Shown piece after piece: positions 3,705 to 63,509 of a DNA stretch of 64,000 bases. The notes below the pieces were generated by a model that worked only from the letters and a program-made list of their open reading frames with translations, had not been told where the DNA came from and did no database searches. Origin of the DNA: Rhodobacter sp. (GTDB taxonomy: Bacteria; Pseudomonadota; Alphaproteobacteria; Rhodobacterales; Rhodobacteraceae); contig PNJK01000010.1 of the NCBI GenBank assembly GCA_013821825.1, forward strand, positions 1 to 64,000, given 5' to 3'. How positions within the stretch are numbered: the first letter of the stretch is position 1; the number at the start of each line of letters is the position of its first letter. The position numbers and the translations under genes are program-made.

Positions 3705-4811
<1,107 letters not shown>

Positions 4812-5297
4812 TTAGTACTCCTCCACTTTAGGCCCCCCAGGTTCGTCGCGACCTGCGCCAGGCACTTCTGCGAGAGAGAACCTAGAGAAGGATCTGCCCG
4901 ATGAGAACCGAAAACTGCATCGGGTTGGCTCATTTTGGTCAGATAACCTTACCAGACTTCAAGTTTCCGCGTCGGAACCCGACTAATTGCGCTGTCAGTC
5001 GCATTCTGATGCCATATGTCGCAAACGATTGCTCGCATCCTGGGCATTCGCAACCGTCCGGAACAGAATCATCCCGGCGCAAGGTGCCTTTTCCATTCGA
5101 CGGGCAACCGGGCAGCCCGGACTATGGCATGAAGATCCCGTCAGGCCCGCGCACCCCGAGGGTGCGTTGCCGGTTGGCAACAGACCCGGCCCTCGGCTCG
5201 GCGCGTCTTCGCGGGCCGGGTCGAATTCCGGGCCGAGACCCTTGCATTCAGTGGGTTGCGGACAGACTTCCCTTGAACGCAACCCCGGGGAGCGGAC
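4812..5297. other. 486-nt intergenic region between takP-like gene and Na+/Ca2+ antiporter
   Basis: I see no credible gene here; open frames lack family signatures and a coding bias. It must hold the takP promoter (minus) and the antiporter promoter (plus). TGGT at 4936-4939 and ACCA at 4951-4954 form a spaced dyad (TGGT-N11-ACCA) of the kind bound by GntR/FadR-type regulators. It lies about 125 nt upstream of the takP start. That is suggestive only. Confidence 0.5.
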
Positions 5298-6212
5298 TTG
5301 ACCTATCTGTATTTCACGCTCGGCCTAGCCGGGCTTTTCCTTGGCGGTGAGTTTCTGGTGCGCGGCGCATCGGCCATCGCCCGCAAGTTCTATTTATCGC
5401 CCCTGCTGATCGGACTGACAATCGTCGGCTTCGGCACTTCGGCTCCGGAGATGCTGGTCTCTGTCGAGGCGGCGATAGACGACAAGCCCGGCATCGCCAT
5501 CGGCAACGTGGTTGGGTCGAACATCGCCAACATCCTGCTGATCCTTGGCATTTCTGCCCTGATCGCCCCCCTGATCATTCCCGGCCGCAAGCTCTGGCGT
5601 GACCTCGGCTTCATGTTTCTGGCCACGGCCGCGATCTGGCTCATGCTCGCCGACGGCTTCGTCTCGCGCGGCGAAGGGTTCTTGCTGTTGGCGGGCCTGA
5701 TCGCATTCCTTGCCACCGCCTTCATCGCCGGCAGCGGCCATGCGCCTCACGCCGACGTCCCACCGGTCGGCCCGATCTGGAAATCCTGGGCGATGACGGG
5801 CGCGGGCCTAGTGCTTCTGGTGATCGGCGCGGGTTTCCTTGTTGACAGCGCCACCACCATCGCCCGCGACTTCGGTATCTCCGAAGCCGTCATCGGCCTG
5901 ACCATCGTCACCATGGGCACTTCGCTGCCCGAGCTTGCCACCAGTGTCATCGCGGCTTGGCGCAGGCACACCGAGATTTCGGTGGGCAACGTGGTCGGCT
6001 CGAACATCTTCAACCTTTTCGGCATCCTCGGGGTCACCGCCGTCATCGCGCCGATCCCGTCGGATCCGCGCTTTGCCGCCATCGACATGTGGTGGGTCGC
6101 AGGCTCTTCGGTCGGGCTGGCGGCTGTTGCTTTCCTTCTGGGCGGGTTGCCCCGGATCGCCGGCCTCGCACTGCTGGGGGCCTATGGCGGCTACCTCGTC
6201 TTCGTGGGTTGA
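5298..6212 (+). CDS. Calcium/sodium antiporter (CaCA superfamily, YrbG-like)
   Basis: The protein is 304 residues with about ten hydrophobic helices and the duplicated alpha-repeats of cation/Ca2+ exchangers. Repeat 1 is GFGTSAPEMLVSVEAA with GNVVGSNIANILLILG. Repeat 2 is TMGTSLPELATSVIAAWR with GNVVGSNIFNLFGILG. The acidic residues in SAPE and SLPE are the family's ion ligands. It is an inner-membrane exchanger expected to expel Ca2+ using Na+ or H+. The start is TTG, after a GGGAGCGGA ribosome site. It appears to be monocistronic. Confidence 0.93.
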   Translation: MTYLYFTLGLAGLFLGGEFLVRGASAIARKFYLSPLLIGLTIVGFGTSAPEMLVSVEAAIDDKPGIAIGNVVGSNIANILLILGISALIAPLIIPGRKLWRDLGFMFLATAAIWLMLADGFVSRGEGFLLLAGLIAFLATAFIAGSGHAPHADVPPVGPIWKSWAMTGAGLVLLVIGAGFLVDSATTIARDFGISEAVIGLTIVTMGTSLPELATSVIAAWRRHTEISVGNVVGSNIFNLFGILGVTAVIAPIPSDPRFAAIDMWWVAGSSVGLAAVAFLLGGLPRIAGLALLGAYGGYLVFVG

Positions 6213-6218
6213 GTGCCC

Positions 6219-6300
6219 GGCGCCCAAGTCATGGCGCCCAAGGTATGGCGCCCGAGTCGTGGTGCGACCTGCTGGCAGGTGGCAGGTGGCAGGTGGCAGG
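6219..6300. repeat. Two adjacent short tandem repeats (14 bp x3, 7 bp x4)
   Basis: Three imperfect 14-bp units (GGCGCCCAAGTCAT, GGCGCCCAAGGTAT, GGCGCCCGAGTCGT) occupy 6219-6260. About four copies of TGGCAGG follow at 6273-6300. They start just after the antiporter stop and lie upstream of the ilv promoter. Confidence 0.85.
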
Positions 6301-6393
6301 GTGAAAATGGGAAAGTTGCGTAACGCGCCATGTCCTCGTAAGAAAAGTTCAAATATACCGGCCATGTGCGACATTTTCTGTTTGCAAATCCCG

Positions 6394-6422
6394 TTGACGC
6401 CCGGCATATCCCCGCCTACTGT
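6394..6422 (+). promoter_or_regulatory. Predicted sigma-70-type promoter of the ilv leader
   Basis: TTGACG (-35, 6394-6399) and TACTGT (-10, 6417-6422) are separated by exactly 17 nt. Transcription would start near 6429, about 20 nt before the leader peptide start, the geometry expected for an attenuated amino-acid operon. Confidence 0.65.
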
Positions 6423-6450
6423 TCCGACCGAACGTGAAGGGGATAGGCCA

Positions 6451-6498
6451 ATGGCCAAAATTCTTGTCATCGTAGGAAGGACGCGCATGGGCCGGTAA
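6451..6498 (+). CDS. ilvBN operon leader peptide (attenuation)
   Basis: A 15-residue open frame, [15 protein letters not shown], follows an AAGGGGA ribosome site. Five consecutive codons read Ile-Leu-Val-Ile-Val, exactly the three end products of the pathway encoded downstream. Ribosome stalling at these codons when charged branched-chain tRNAs are scarce would favour the alternative RNA fold and let transcription pass the terminator. It is too short for routine gene callers. Confidence 0.88.
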
Positions 6499-6555
6499 CG
6501 GTTGACCCATACGAGGTTCCCATGCGCCCCCGAAGGAAACTTCCGGGGGCTTTTT
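6483..6555 (+). promoter_or_regulatory. Attenuator: antiterminator stem and Rho-independent terminator of ilvBN
   Basis: GCGCATGGG (6483-6491, overlapping the last leader codons) can pair perfectly with CCCATGCGC (6519-6527). The right arm of that stem overlaps the left arm of the terminator, GCCCCCG...AAG (6526-6535). The terminator closes with a GAAA tetraloop and CTT-C-CGGGGGC, then T5 (6551-6555). The two folds are mutually exclusive. A small pause hairpin (ATGGG at 6487-6491 with CCCAT at 6506-6510) is also possible. The ilvB start codon is 26 nt after the T run. Confidence 0.88.
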
Positions 6556-6581
6556 GTTGCGCGACGAATGGAGTGGCGAAG

Positions 6582-8336
6582 ATGTCGAAGCAGATGACTG
6601 GCGCGAAGATGGTGATCCAGGCCCTGAAGGATCAGGGGGTCGAGGTGGTCTTTGGCTATCCCGGCGGCGCGGTGCTTCCGATCTATGACGAGATTTTCCA
6701 GCAGAACGACATCCGCCACATCCTTGTGCGCCACGAACAGGGCGCGGTCCACATGGCCGAAGGCTATGCCCGTTCGACCGGCAGGCCCGGCGTCGTGCTG
6801 GTCACCTCCGGCCCCGGTGCCACCAATGCGGTGACCGGCCTGACCGATGCTCTGATGGATTCGATCCCGCTGGTTGTGCTGACCGGCCAGGTTCCGACCT
6901 TCATGATCGGCACGGACGGGTTCCAGGAGGCCGACACGGTTGGCATCACCCGACCCTGCACCAAGATGAACTGGCTGGTGAAGGACACCGCCAAGCTTTC
7001 CGAGACCATTCATCAGGCCTTCCACGTCGCCACGCATGGCCGCCCCGGCCCGGTGCTGATCGACATTCCGAAGGACGTGCAATTCGCCACGGCCGACTAT
7101 ACCCCCGCCGACAAGGTCAAGGTCAGCCACTACCAGCCGCGCACCGAAGGCGACCCGGCCCAGATTGCCCGTCTGGTCGAACTGATGGAAAACGCTGAGC
7201 GCCCGATCCTTTATACCGGCGGCGGCGTGGTGAACTCGGGCCCGCGCGCCAGCCACCTCTTGCGCGAGCTGGTGGCCGAGACGGACTTTCCGGTCACCTC
7301 GACCCTGATGGGCCTCGGGTCCTACCCGGCTTCGGGCAAGAACTGGCTGGGCATGTTGGGCATGCACGGGCTTTACGAGGCCAACCTCGCGATGCACGGC
7401 TGCGATGTGATGATCAACATCGGCGCCCGCTTTGATGACCGGATCACCGGCCGCATCAAGGATTTCTCGCCGCATTCGAAGAAGGCCCATATCGACATCG
7501 ACCCTTCGTCGATCAACAAGGTCATCCGCGTCGATGTACCGATCGTCGGCGACGTGACCCGCGTCCTGGAGGAGGTCCTGCGCCAGTGGCGCGCACGCGG
7601 CAGCCGCACGCGGAAGGACGGCTTGGCGAAATGGTGGGGCCAGATCAACGAGTGGCGCGCGATCAAGTGCCTCAGCTACAAGCCTTCGACCACCACGATC
7701 AAGCCGCAATACGCGCTGGAACGGCTTGAGGCGCTGACCAGGGGGATGGACCGCTATATCTGCACCGAGGTCGGCCAGCACCAGATGTGGGCCGCGCAAT
7801 ACCTGAACTTCGAGGGCCCGAACCGCTGGATGACCTCGGGCGGACTTGGCACCATGGGCTACGGCCTGCCCGCTTCGATCGGCGTGCAGATCGCCCATCC
7901 CGAAGCGCTGGTGATCAACGTCGCGGGCGAGGCGTCCTGGCTGATGAACATGCAGGAAATGGGCACCGCCGTGCAATTCCGTGCCCCGGCCAAGCAGTTC
8001 ATCCTGAACAACGAACGGCTCGGCATGGTCCGCCAGTGGCAGGAACTGCTGCACGGCGAGCGCTATTCGTCGTCCTGGTCGGAAAGCCTGCCCGATTTCG
8101 TGAAGCTGGCCGAGGCTTTCGGCTGCAAGGGCATCCAGTGCAAGGACCCCAAGGACCTTGACGACGCGATCATGGAGATGCTGCGCTACGACGGCCCGGT
8201 GATCTTCGACTGCCTGGTGGAAAAGCACGAGAACTGCTTCCCGATGATCCCGTCGGGCAAGCCGCACAACGAGATGTTGCTTGGCGACGCCGACACCCAG
8301 GGGGTGATCGGGGCCAAAGGCGCGGTGCTGGTGTAA
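6582..8336 (+). CDS. ilvB: Acetolactate synthase, large (catalytic) subunit
   Basis: The 584-residue thiamine-diphosphate enzyme condenses two pyruvates to acetolactate (valine/leucine) or pyruvate with 2-oxobutyrate (isoleucine). The N-terminal PYR domain carries the catalytic Glu ([13 protein letters not shown], about residue 52). The central FAD-type domain is present. The C-terminal PP domain reads [15 protein letters not shown] then [13 protein letters not shown]. In that last motif the usual Asp of G-D-G/A-S, a metal ligand, is Glu450. I chose ATG 6582 ([10 protein letters not shown]); an upstream in-frame ATG would start inside the attenuator. Control is by the attenuator and through IlvN. 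Confidence 0.96.
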
Positions 8337-8339
8337 CGG

Positions 8340-9575
8340 ATGCAGACCGTCGAACAGCGCCAGGCGGCTGATGCGCGGCTGGCTCCGTTCGGCGGGCGGT
8401 CGGCCCGGTTGTTTGCCACCATCGTCGCCCTCTGCGCGCTGGCTTTCGTCGGCGTCGTCATCGCGGTGTCGTTCATTCTGACGTCGAAGCCCGACACTCT
8501 GGCAATGAGCATCGATTTCAGGGTGTTCTGGGCAGCCGGAAAGCTTGCCATGGCCGGCGATCCTCTTGCGGTGCTCGATCTGGCCAAGCTGTCGGCAGCG
8601 CATGCGACCAATCCGGATGCCCATATGCCGTGGGTTTATCCGCCGGGCTATCTGGTTATGGTCACGCCGCTCGGGGCGATGTCCTTTTCCGTGGCGTTCA
8701 CGGTCTGGACGATCCTGTCCCTTATCCTGATCGCATGGGCCGTCCGACCCTTCGTGGCCGGGATCTTGCCGCTCTGGATTCTGATGATCGCCGCCCCGGC
8801 GTATTTCCCTTCGCTCTTGCTTGGCCAGAACAGCCTGTTGTGGATGGCAGGGCTGCTTGGCGCCCTGGCTGCCCTGAGGGCCGAGCGCTGGGTTCTGGCC
8901 GGGATCCTGATTGGTAGTCTGACGCTGAAGCCGCAGCTTGGCATAATGGTCCCGGTTGCACTTCTGGCCATAGGCGCATGGCGGACGATCTTCGCCGCGA
9001 TGGCCACGACGGCACTTCTGGCCGTGCTGCCAACGCTGATCTACGGCCTTGAATACTGGCCGCTTCTGAAAGCCGGCCTGATCGACCACAGCGCGAGCAT
9101 GGTGTTCTCGCTCGGCGACCTGCTGCTGATGATCAGCCCGCTTTCCGCATTGACCTTCATCGGCGTGGACCCCGCGCTTGCCTTGAAAGTCCAATGGGTC
9201 ATCGTTGCCGCTACCGCCGTCGCGGTCTTCGCCCTTTGGCGTTCTGACCGGGTCGGGTTCGATGCCAAGGCGGCGGGTCTTCTCAGCGCGATCCTGCTGT
9301 CGGCGCCCTATCTTTGGTACTATGAAGGGGCGCTGCTGGCCGCTATCGCTTTGTTCATGCTGCGCTCGGGCGTTCTTCAGGCGCGTCCGGCTCACCTTTT
9401 GGTGCTGGGTGCATTGTGGATCGGCGCTGGTCTGCAGGTGCTGAATGTTTTCGCCAAGGTCGTCGATCAAAGATGGCTTGGCGCTGCGATCATCCCACCT
9501 CTGGTGCTTCTCAGTCTGGCCTTGTGCCTGCGGCAGATGTCCGCACCAAGGAACCTCACGCAAGATACGGCCTGA
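8340..9575 (+). CDS. GT87/DUF2029-type membrane glycosyltransferase inserted in the ilv operon
   Basis: This 411-residue protein has about ten transmembrane helices and the GT-C layout of DUF2029/GT87. After the first helix comes a short extracytoplasmic loop with an Asp-led motif (SIDFRVFWAAGK), where the catalytic Asp is expected, then WVYPPGYLVMVTPLG. Family members use polyprenyl-phosphate sugars to glycosylate lipids or glycans. ATG lies only 3 nt after the ilvB stop, and no terminator separates it from ilvN 83 nt downstream. It is therefore presumably co-transcribed under branched-chain control. The acceptor is unknown, and a link to amino-acid synthesis is not evident. Confidence 0.8.
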   Translation: MQTVEQRQAADARLAPFGGRSARLFATIVALCALAFVGVVIAVSFILTSKPDTLAMSIDFRVFWAAGKLAMAGDPLAVLDLAKLSAAHATNPDAHMPWVYPPGYLVMVTPLGAMSFSVAFTVWTILSLILIAWAVRPFVAGILPLWILMIAAPAYFPSLLLGQNSLLWMAGLLGALAALRAERWVLAGILIGSLTLKPQLGIMVPVALLAIGAWRTIFAAMATTALLAVLPTLIYGLEYWPLLKAGLIDHSASMVFSLGDLLLMISPLSALTFIGVDPALALKVQWVIVAATAVAVFALWRSDRVGFDAKAAGLLSAILLSAPYLWYYEGALLAAIALFMLRSGVLQARPAHLLVLGALWIGAGLQVLNVFAKVVDQRWLGAAIIPPLVLLSLALCLRQMSAPRNLTQDTA

Positions 9576-52432: not shown

Positions 52433-52461
52433 GCGTGATGGTGCCGGGACCTGGCAATTCA

Positions 52462-52558
52462 TTTGCCTTGCTCCCAAGCTATGCAATGCCTTTGATTTGC
52501 ATTTCATCAAAGCAAATCATTTGACTTGCATTACCAGACTGCAAAGCGAATACTTTGC
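52462..52558 (+). promoter_or_regulatory. 29-bp-period array of TTGC/GCAA half-sites upstream of the SatD-like gene
   Basis: Aligned in rows of 29 nt from 52462, the sequence shows TTTG-N2-TTGC at the start of three consecutive rows (52462, 52491, 52520) and GCAA at position 22 of each (52483, 52512, 52541). A fourth TTGC is in phase at 52555. TTGC and GCAA thus alternate every 15 and 14 bp, giving strong local dyads such as GCAAAG-N6-CTTTGC (52541-52558). The array is AT-rich against its surroundings and ends 2 nt before the ATG, covering the place where a ribosome site should be. It looks like a cooperative operator. Confidence 0.7.
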
Positions 52559-52560
52559 TC

Positions 52561-53211
52561 ATGAAACATGTCGTAGCGATCATGACTGGCGATCTGATCG
52601 GATCGACCGACGCTTCGCGTGAAGCGATCGACAAGGCCATGGCGATCATCCGCGATTGCGCGGATCGGCTCGGCGAGCACACACATTTCACGCGCTTCCG
52701 CGGCGATGGCTGGCAGATTCGGCTTCTGCACCCGAATGACAGTTTGTGGGCCAGCCTCCTCATCCTGGCCAAGCTCCGGTCACAGGCGGACGTGCCGGGC
52801 TGCCGGATCGCGGTTGGCATCGGCGAGGAGTACCCGACCGACGCCAAAGACCTTTCAACCGCGATGGGCCCGGCCTTCACCGCCGCTGGTCATGCGCTGG
52901 ACCGGATGAAGCCCGACCGGTTGTTGGCGCTGGACGGCAAAGGCGTTGATCTGTTCCGAAAGCTGACATTCACAATTGCGGGCGAACTGGCCGGGCGCTG
53001 GACCACAGGCCAGGCTGAAGCCATGGCGATGAAGCTCGACCCCGGAAGCCCGGCCGATGAAAGGCTGTCGAACGAAGCGATTGCGCGCCAGCTTGGCATC
53101 ACGCGTCAGGCGGTGGACGCAAGGCTCAGGGCGGCGGACTATCCCTTGCTTGATGAGATGATCCAGGCATTTCTCGCTGATGCAGTGCATCCGGATGGCG
53201 CCAATGGCTGA
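52561..53211 (+). CDS. SatD-like protein: class III cyclase-like core plus C-terminal HTH
   Basis: The 216-residue protein resembles the SatD family. The first strand and turn read VVAIMTGDLIGSTDAS, a second motif is FRGDGWQI, a third RIAVGIGEE, and then GPAFTAAGHALDRM. These follow the order of class III nucleotidyl-cyclase landmarks (D-x-x-G-S-T with D11, G-D-G with D49, the GIxxGE strand, and the Asn/Arg helix). The usual Asn and Arg of that helix are not clearly present (Thr and His instead). Residues about 170-195 (SNEAIARQLGITRQAVDARLRAADY) form a helix-turn-helix. ATG 52561 lacks a ribosome site. The stop overlaps the DUF3307 gene. Nucleotide binding is inferred. Confidence 0.75.
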   Translation: MKHVVAIMTGDLIGSTDASREAIDKAMAIIRDCADRLGEHTHFTRFRGDGWQIRLLHPNDSLWASLLILAKLRSQADVPGCRIAVGIGEEYPTDAKDLSTAMGPAFTAAGHALDRMKPDRLLALDGKGVDLFRKLTFTIAGELAGRWTTGQAEAMAMKLDPGSPADERLSNEAIARQLGITRQAVDARLRAADYPLLDEMIQAFLADAVHPDGANG

Positions 53212-53929
53212 GACCCTCGCCGCTCTGGTCTTCGCACATGTCCTGGCCGATTTCGTCTTTCAGACCCGCTGGATGGTGGCCAACAAGATCCGCCCGGAGG
53301 CTCTGGCGCTGCATGGTCTGGTTGTCCTTGGCACTGCCATCGCGGCCACAGGCGGGATCGACCCCGGCCTGATCTGGCTGGCGGCCCTGCATGTCGCGGT
53401 GGACGCGCTGAAGGCACGGGCGCCCCGCGGACTGCAACCGTTTCTGATCGATCAGGCGGCGCATCTGGCGGCAATCGCCGCGCTGGCCATGTCGCGACCG
53501 ATGATCTGGGATCACGGCCGGCTGGCAGACATCGCGGCCCTGCCCGCCCTGATGCTGCTTGCCGCCGGGGCAATCCTGGCCACGCGGGCCGGGGGCTTCG
53601 CGGTTGGCCTTCTGATGGAGCCCTTCGCGTCGCGCCTGCCCGCAGGCATCAGCACCGAAAGCCTTCCCGGCGCCGGTCGGGTGATCGGCCTTCTGGAACG
53701 CGGGCTGATCTTTGCGCTTGTCCTTCTGGGCCAGCCCGCCGGCGTAGGGCTGCTGATCGCAGCCAAGTCGATCCTGCGTTTCGGAGCGGTCCGGGATGAC
53801 CGGGCATTGTCGGAATATGTGATCATCGGCACGCTGGCTTCTTTCGGCTGGGCGATTCTGGCGGCCTACGCGACGCTTTCGGCGCTCAACATCTTTCCGC
53901 CGCTTGGAATTCTGCCCGTCACACCCTAG
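53204..53929 (+). CDS. DUF3307 polytopic membrane protein, partner of the SatD-like gene
   Basis: The 241-residue protein has about six or seven hydrophobic segments and the DUF3307 opening AALVFAHVLADFVFQTRWMVANK, followed by a His in the second helix (ALHGLVVLG) and the AALHVAVDALKARAP segment. The C-terminal half has further helices (RGLIFALVLLGQPAG, YVIIGTLASFGWAILAAYATLSAL). ATG 53204 overlaps the SatD-like stop by 8 nt (an ATG at 53195 is also in frame), indicating coupled translation. SatD and DUF3307 genes are, to my knowledge, recurrent neighbours in other bacteria. No biochemical function is established. Confidence 0.78.
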   Translation: MAETLAALVFAHVLADFVFQTRWMVANKIRPEALALHGLVVLGTAIAATGGIDPGLIWLAALHVAVDALKARAPRGLQPFLIDQAAHLAAIAALAMSRPMIWDHGRLADIAALPALMLLAAGAILATRAGGFAVGLLMEPFASRLPAGISTESLPGAGRVIGLLERGLIFALVLLGQPAGVGLLIAAKSILRFGAVRDDRALSEYVIIGTLASFGWAILAAYATLSALNIFPPLGILPVTP

Positions 53930-53953
53930 ATTGCGATCAAAGGAGCCTCTTCC

Positions 53954-63098: not shown

Positions 63099-63509
63099 TT
63101 ACATACCGAGCGCGGTCTTGACCTGAGCGATGGTGTCAGCCACCAGCGCCGGGTTGGCTTTGGCAGCCTCGACGGCGGTCTTCAGGGTGGTCTTCGTCGC
63201 GTCGTCCAGCGTCGAGCCGTCAATCAGCGCGACGACCGAGTCGGCGTTGAAGGTGGCCGGATCGAGAGCAGCGGCAGTCGCAGCTGCGGCTGCTGCTTCG
63301 GCAGCGGCAGCTTCTGCGGCGGCAGCTTCTTCTGCGGCCTTGGCGGCTGCTTCAGCGGCGGCGGCTTCCGCAGCAGCGGCTTCTTCGGCGGCCTTCTTCT
63401 CGGCTTCCGCGACCATCGCGGCTTCTTGTGCCGGCTTATAGCTGAACTGGTAATAGCCACCAGCAGCCAGAAGGACGACGATTGCGCCGATGATTACAGT
63501 TCTGTTCAT
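63099..63509 (-). CDS. Alanine/glutamate-rich membrane-anchored coiled protein
   Basis: The 136-residue protein starts MNRTVIIGAIVVLLAAGGYYQFSYKP, an uncleaved N-terminal anchor. A low-complexity helix of AAEEAAAAEAAAAEAAA-type repeats (about residues 35-85) follows. The C-terminal globular piece contains LDPATFNADSVVALIDGSTLDDATKTTLKTAVEAAKANPALV. ATG 63509 follows GGGAG; an upstream 15-codon extension is unlikely. The helix could span part of the periplasm, placing the small end domain away from the membrane. I do not recognise a named family. Confidence 0.75.
   Translation of the reverse strand: MNRTVIIGAIVVLLAAGGYYQFSYKPAQEAAMVAEAEKKAAEEAAAAEAAAAEAAAKAAEEAAAAEAAAAEAAAAAATAAALDPATFNADSVVALIDGSTLDDATKTTLKTAVEAAKANPALVADTIAQVKTALGM

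Follow-up and report, generated by a model that had tools for sequence, protein, structure and literature searches.

Two adjoining genes on the forward strand are the subject of this analysis, within a window that is the whole 64,000-nucleotide stretch of Rhodobacter sp. DNA analyzed here. Gene A (52561-53211) codes for a 216-aa SatD-type protein with a nucleotidyl-cyclase-like domain (about residues 1-145) and a C-terminal helix-turn-helix (HTH, about 166-195), and gene B (53204-53929) for a 241-aa long-form DUF3307 membrane protein. The coordinates confirm the 8-nt overlap reported in a first-pass annotation made from the sequence alone, the ATG of gene B lying at 53204 and the TGA of gene A at 53209-53211. 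The sequence motifs listed in that annotation are likewise all present in protein A: D11, GDG at 48-50, GIGEE at 86-90, the helix GPAFTAAGHALDRM at 103-116, and the HTH at about 166-192.

Gene B matches the Pfam family DUF3307 (PF11750) over residues 5-96, with 44 bits (cut-off 23) and an E-value of 2.7e-11. The window's gene A protein (P0001) has no match to Pfam SatD (PF16264) at E<=1; its Pfam matches are HTH models at about 166-192, all below their cut-offs, and, weakly, GGDEF_2 (E 0.08). PF16264 is matched at E<=1 by nine of 45 aligned gene A proteins, and one of the relatives, L018, which is the gene A allele at the same chromosomal place in a congener (locus L159), scores 29.8 bits, above the cut-off of 29. 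Among ten gene A proteins scanned singly at E<=0.01, L018 (29.8 bits) and L035 (22.9 bits) match and the other eight do not; among seven scanned singly at E<=0.1, L057 (26.3 bits) and L062 (25.9 bits) match and the other five do not. Gene A of L065 and of L067 gives no match to PF16264 at E<=0.1. A Pfam SatD search of the window's own genome returned nothing, as did the controls of that search. Given the score of L018 and the nine matching family members, the gene A group appears best filed with SatD, through its relatives rather than through P0001; the earlier label "SatD-like" thus suits the relatives, whereas the window protein itself does not match the family.

A probable, divergent cyclase-like domain in protein A

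In 48 aligned gene A proteins, including that of the window, G10, D11, G48-D49-G50-W51-Q52, R82, G103, and G110 are invariant. Eight distant gene A proteins, which include two pairs of near-copies, all retain D11, D49, and R82 (8/8), with GDGWQ changed to GDSWQ, GDGFQ, GDSFQ, GDEFQ, or GDYIE. Neither D11 nor D49, whose loss across orthologues had been named in advance as speaking against the first-pass reading, is lost in any of the 48 and eight proteins. In the helix VNxAxR of class III cyclases, the catalytic Asn presumably aligns with position 107 and the Arg with position 111. The window protein has T107 and H111 at these positions, and the annotated replacement of both catalytic residues is thus true of it; yet, while position 107 is variable in the family, 111 is Arg in 24 of the 48 homologues and in all eight distant ones.

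Profile comparisons show weak, remote homology to nucleotidyl cyclases. A search of PDB profiles with gene A gives the class III cyclase Ma1120 as best match (E 0.0099), the C-terminus matching HTH regulators. With hhalign, gene A aligns weakly to 26 class III cyclases (those with a recognisable motif among 30 loci fetched) at E 0.005 and 7% probability and slightly better to nine GGDEF domains at E 0.0011 and 20% probability, each as a single comparison, and to six unrelated controls at E 0.2 or worse. Used as a profile, the gene A alignment finds six weak matches in five of 289 alphaproteobacterial genomes; four of the six, read as ORFs, resemble class III cyclases (first-strand D, GD, RIG), and at the fifth locus there is no ORF of 250 aa. 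The class III cyclase family PF00211 is absent from the matches of P0001 at E<=1 and from the 25 families listed of the 40 matched by A1 members. The GG[DE]EF motif is also absent: the window protein has RGDGW in its place, and the eight distant proteins have RGDS, RGDG, RGDE, or KGDY. The proposed resemblance to class III cyclases is therefore upheld in part: there is weak profile homology and both Asp are kept, but there is no Pfam match and the catalytic Asn/Arg are replaced in the window protein. The N-terminal domain of gene A likely belongs to the nucleotidyl-cyclase/palm superfamily, an assignment that we make at the superfamily level.

Such a domain might have no ligand at all, in which case gene A would be a plain autorepressor whose dead palm domain serves dimerisation only, a role that the GGDEF-like domain of PucR/CdaR regulators may also have. 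The weak GGDEF_2 match and the hhalign alignment to GGDEF domains are in line with this, as is the architecture of PucR regulators, which combine a palm-like domain with an HTH and for whose GGDEF-like domain no specific function has been reported (PMC7652997). A dimer interface, however, need not fix D11, G48-D49, and R82 amid about 30% identity within the genus, and we regard this explanation as unlikely.

An operator-like array over the predicted gene A promoter

Immediately 5' of gene A lie four 18-bp operator-like dyads of the form GCAA-N10-TTGC, spaced by a step of 29 bp: dyad 1, GCAATTCATTTGCCTTGC (52454-52471); dyad 2, GCAATGCCTTTGATTTGC (52483-52500); dyad 3, GCAAATCATTTGACTTGC (52512-52529); and dyad 4, GCAAAGCGAATACTTTGC (52541-52558). 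On the forward strand, consensus matching predicts a -35 hexamer, TTGCAT (52526-52531), at -35 from the start codon of gene A, and, 17 nt from it, a -10 hexamer, AATACT (52549-52554). The right arm of dyad 3 forms the start of the -35 box, and dyad 4, which spans -20 to -3 relative to the start codon, overlies the -10 box, so that the transcript is predicted to start at or near the ATG and to be leaderless. The sites thus cover the predicted core promoter of gene A itself, as expected of an autoregulator.

Chains of such dyads are common in the regions upstream of gene A. With a detector of fixed-width 18-bp dyads at a step of 28-30, chains of at least two dyads are present in 42 of 56 regions and of at least three in 30 of 56. 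The same detector finds them in 131 and 8 of 3951 random stretches from the same loci (a control that may contain a few gene A regions, which would raise its counts), or in 25 and 6 of the 666 among these stretches with a G+C content under 0.56, and in 14 and 0 of 349 regions upstream of eight neighbouring genes. The gene A counts are not blind, since the fixed-width detector was devised after the 28-29-bp step had been seen; an earlier, stricter detector of variable width gave at least two dyads in 34 and at least three in 15 of the 56. Nor are the 56 regions independent, several coming from congeners and L066/L100, L097/L099, and L060/L063 being near-copies. By group, 38 of 43 alphaproteobacterial and four of 13 other regions have a chain. 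The 14 without one are G001, G021, L033, L052, three Verrucomicrobia, both Chloroflexi, Sphingomonas, Desulfococcaceae, Segatella, and both Salinivibrio.

What is conserved is the step: among 91 arm-similar dyad pairs (lags 18 to 45), 66 are spaced by 29 bp and 21 by 28 bp. The arms themselves differ, comprising GCAA..TTGC, TCAAG..CTTGA, ACAAG..CTTGT, TTAGCC..GGCTAA, GTAAC..GTTAC, and ACACCC..GGGTAT, and dyads at a 28-29-bp step, with sequences other than the window's, also precede gene A of Vibrio, Pseudoalteromonas, and Acidobacteriota, and that of a Bacteroidota-like element. The latter (L209, outside the 56) has two dyads, one about 100 and the other about 70 bases ahead of the start, at a step of 29 bp. 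Upstream of position 5986 in L042, TCAAG-type dyads adjoin gene A and are preceded further upstream by partly GCAA-type ones, like the remnant of an older array.

A search of the window's genome for a two-dyad pattern of its own arm type, with up to two mismatches, finds exact matches only in the gene A array, as three overlapping matches; a control with the reversed pattern finds none. Two other places in the genome match with two mismatches, so that further targets of gene A are possible. Across the entire window, chains of three or more dyads turn up in the gene A array and in one G+C-rich periodic dyad-like stretch at 63242-63330 (step 28-30), which is probably coding repetition. In the five empty sites that could be extracted from congeners lacking the pair (see below), no 7-base inverted repeats are present.

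The type of arm goes together with the allele of the HTH. With arm types assigned by eye, all 24 G-arm proteins have Arg at residue 182 and none of the 12 T-arm proteins does, Arg182 going with GCAA arms and Pro or Ala182 with TCAAG arms; G005, G022, and L064 were dropped from this comparison, and G014 had no full-length protein. In G022, residue 183 is Ala instead of Gln, and the arms are of a further type. The promoter geometry was compared by arm type as well, using a loose consensus: a TTG hexamer at -35 and a -10-like hexamer at -12 with a spacing of 17 are found in 11 of 12 G-arm loci tested (window included), and this -35/-12 geometry in one of five T-arm loci tested, one other being a base off and three having none. 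On a tree of the N-terminal domain, the association between arm and residue 182 corresponds to only one or two independent changes, too few for an independent-pairs test to give a p-value, and it is therefore suggestive rather than conclusive. Because the operator-like array lies on the gene's own predicted promoter and its arms track the HTH allele, we consider that the HTH very probably binds DNA, as the first-pass annotation had proposed.

Dyads are common targets, and the array might instead serve a regulator unrelated to gene A, mark a site of insertion or replication, or form RNA hairpins; the 14 chainless regions among the 56 would be compatible with this. Against such a different element stand the occurrence of the exact pattern at a single place in the genome, right before gene A, the five empty sites in which no inverted repeats were seen, and an array sequence that follows the HTH allele and covers the predicted core promoter. 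We hold this explanation to be very unlikely.

A widespread pair, with a fixed place in the genus

Of 61 genomes searched, 23 have gene A and 24 have gene B, and every one of these belongs to the genus, which contributes 32 genomes (the window's own included, which has one gene A match); the sole disagreement is G016, where gene B lies at a contig end. A scan of genome contigs gave 37 loci, mostly from Rhodobacterales but also from Chloroflexi, Verrucomicrobia, Acidobacteriota, and Desulfococcaceae, and plasmid searches added Sphingomonas, Pseudoalteromonas, Segatella, Vibrio, and Salinivibrio, with gene B following gene A in all seven plasmid loci opened. A good gene B match lies beside gene A in 60 of 64 loci, a count in which some loci are the same place fetched twice. 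The exceptions are L016 and L038 (the same contig end), L049 (where the contig ends within gene B, 46 bits), and L058 (Desulfococcaceae), where no gene B was found. The neighbourhood survey thus bears out the statement in the first-pass annotation that SatD and DUF3307 tend to be neighbours, and the two-gene module is real and widespread.

Neither gene A, nor gene B, nor a distant gene A matched any of 50,697 phage records by tblastn. A scan of viral contigs gave nothing with query A1 and a single Bacteroidota-like element, L209, with query A2; in this record of a viral collection (4268-8571) a long open frame lies after A and B, and its product looks, judged by eye, like a helicase/primase-type protein.

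Within the genus, some genomes carry the pair and others lack it at a site flanked by a DUF59 gene and an IscA-like gene. This order is kept in most other Rhodobacterales loci. In L035 and L043 about 4 kb separate DUF59 from gene A, and L052 has none of the usual flanks. Both genes are absent from eight congeners, and in all six of these where DUF59 was found IscA adjoins it, with a gap between the two matches of 63-159 nt in five and a partial IscA match in the sixth.

The 3' end of gene B contains a predicted promoter of the IscA-like gene (TTGGAA-N17-TAGATT, 53904-53932, forward strand), the stop codon of gene B lying within its -10 hexamer. A similar promoter-like element, TTGGAA-N17-TAGATT or a close variant, is near-invariant in the genus (24/24 occupied loci shown), and may explain the conserved C-terminus PPLGI of gene B.

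A hydropathy scan of the window's gene B predicts five hydrophobic regions. In 20 gene B sequences from several phyla, H12, D16, Q84, H87, E165, R166, K188, S189, E204, Y205, G209, and S213 are among the invariant residues, and Q20, K28, H37, H63, D67, K70, and D83 are near-invariant. No PDB relatives were found at E<=10. What gene B shares with DUF3307 (PF11750), at 44 bits, is its N-terminal half; beyond this it has a conserved C-terminal half (G158, I161-G162, E165-R166, A187-K188-S189, E204-Y205, G209, S213). In a class survey, the three genomes with gene A have gene B frames of 250-265 aa, against 131-188 aa in eleven DUF3307 genomes without gene A, one of them below cut-off; on this basis the C-terminal half looks like a mark of the form paired with gene A.

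Separate exchange of the two genes

The median pairwise identity within the genus is 38.5% for A (fragments included) and 72.0% for B, compared with 93.2% for DUF59, 89.1% for IscA, and 83.3% for TPI in the flanks, and 88.9% for SSB, 84.1% for P450, 98.0% for Lrp, 75.7% for EamA, and 75.7% for SLT further out. On a gene A tree, from which the fragments G012 (73 aa) and G014 (80 aa) were dropped, G012 being represented by the piece on its other contig, allele class I is a clade with 100/100 support. The tree of flanking proteins, in which G014 was left out, rejects class I as a clade (p-AU 4.8e-5), and also class II (1.7e-4) and the short form of B (9.7e-7); the allele classes had been defined from genes A and B ahead of this tree. 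Moreover, every combination of A class I or not with B short or long is found. Since the flanks reject the allele clades and all combinations of A and B classes occur, the sequence comparisons indicate that A and B are exchanged separately at one locus, which makes the locus a clear natural example of a two-gene cassette with its members replaced individually at a fixed place.

Three loci of the genus carry a broken gene: among L151 (G014), L145 (G005), and L162 (G029), two from incomplete genomes have gene A broken and B whole, and the third has gene B broken near its start, with unread letters. Assembly error is possible in all of these.

Neighbourhood and possible defence function

We do not favour a defence island at the window as the main interpretation: the pair is surrounded by housekeeping genes whose order is conserved in most Rhodobacterales loci, and PADLOC gives no match at E<=0.1 for A, B, or four relatives. 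In two distant loci among those with neighbours examined, Pycsar effector genes lie near the pair. A Sphingomonas plasmid (L065, 2962-10452) carries PycTM genes, a TIR protein, an E2-type gene, and a cyclase close to it, and a Chloroflexi contig (L057, 4796-5395) carries PycTM along with terminase and GH25 genes.

These neighbourhoods bear on whether gene A encodes a working nucleotidyl cyclase or polymerase with a product that acts on B, in a Pycsar-, CBASS-, or Panoptes-like manner, autoregulation serving only to set the level. The invariant metal Asp (48/48 and 8/8), the frequency of Arg at 111, and the membrane nature of B would all suit an enzyme with an effector, as would PycTM with a TIR protein and a cyclase in Sphingomonas, PycTM amid phage-like genes in Chloroflexi, and, within 6 kb of the pair on a Vibrio plasmid, an Rpn-type nuclease and a type I restriction subunit; presence or absence with allele exchange at one locus also resembles immune genes. 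Conversely, the Asn is lost, the PADLOC models have no match, and the Rhodobacterales pair mostly lies between the same housekeeping genes. Moreover, in the part of each neighbourhood that was covered, there is no common defence context near the pairs of Salinivibrio, Pseudoalteromonas, Verrucomicrobia, and Acidobacteriota, nor near those of Desulfococcaceae and the second Chloroflexi. An active enzyme of this kind appears to us rather unlikely.

A model for the A-B operon

Our preferred reading, which we hold to be fairly probable, is that gene A is a local autoregulator of the A-B operon with a nucleotide-binding palm domain, and that gene B is the output. With both metal-binding Asp kept and the catalytic Asn lost, the diverged palm domain most likely binds a nucleotide, possibly a cyclic one. 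The C-terminal HTH would bind the 18-bp dyads, one every 29 bp, as dimers. Because dyads 3 and 4 overlie the -35 and -10 boxes of the predicted leaderless promoter, occupation of the array should repress A and B, and binding of the ligand would change this occupancy. Gene B, polytopic and with invariant His, Asp, Lys, and Glu, would provide the output as a membrane enzyme, a transporter, or an effector. Since the B allele need not match the A allele, the link between the two would be regulatory or would rely on a small molecule that both share, and not on a variable contact between the proteins. The first-pass annotation, which had read the pair as a DNA-binding nucleotide sensor or synthase coupled to a membrane effector or transporter, is thus partly supported: the module, the very probable DNA binding, the conserved Asp pair, and a weak cyclase homology all stand.

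A more speculative variant is a guard circuit, in which a nucleotide made or held by A would silence B and, read through the array, set the dose of A; an invader or stress that removes the nucleotide would open the array and let B act on the membrane. We give it a small chance; if it were true, an arms race would have left its mark in the way A and B alleles were swapped independently of each other at a fixed chromosomal place.

Both SatD and DUF3307 occur widely as domains of unknown function, and the array offers a first testable idea for the pair and, for SatD proteins, a concrete proposal of autoregulation via evenly spaced sites. The 105-bp array fragment lends itself directly to gel-shift assays with candidate nucleotides, a route to the ligand.

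Comparison with known systems

Our searches of the open-access literature found no description of a SatD or DUF3307 mechanism or operator. Among 5.39 million open papers a single one mentions DUF3307, in a gene table, and in the text available from two others SatD or satCDE is named and linked to acid tolerance or protein translocation, on the basis of annotation or expression only. The likeness of gene A to the SatD family (PF16264; satD of Streptococcus mutans) lies in full-length profile matches of some of its relatives, and not of P0001 itself. With class III cyclases (PF00211; best solved relative Ma1120), it shares the alignment of D11 and D49, and G103 stands as far from position 111 as the Gly does from the catalytic Arg; unlike them, it has no Pfam match, a replaced Asn, His111 in the window, and a C-terminal HTH.

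Regulators of the PucR/CdaR type also have a palm-like domain followed by an HTH. According to the available part of PMC7652997, about half of PucR-family regulators carry the GGDEF-like domain, and members of the family bind inverted repeats of 17-24 bp. Gene A differs from them in having no PucR match, a different HTH, mostly two to four evenly spaced dyads, and a DUF3307 partner. 

In Pycsar, a small cyclase enzyme is encoded beside a membrane protein. The A-B pair resembles this system and Panoptes in that a small palm or cyclase protein adjoins a membrane protein, but it has no Pfam or PADLOC match to such families, and it adds an HTH and an operator-like array. To our knowledge, neither PucR-family regulators nor Panoptes have such an array or involve the SatD and DUF3307 families. 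Panoptes (mCpol-2TMbeta), as described in the accessible part of PMC12657230, is itself a small palm enzyme paired with a membrane effector.
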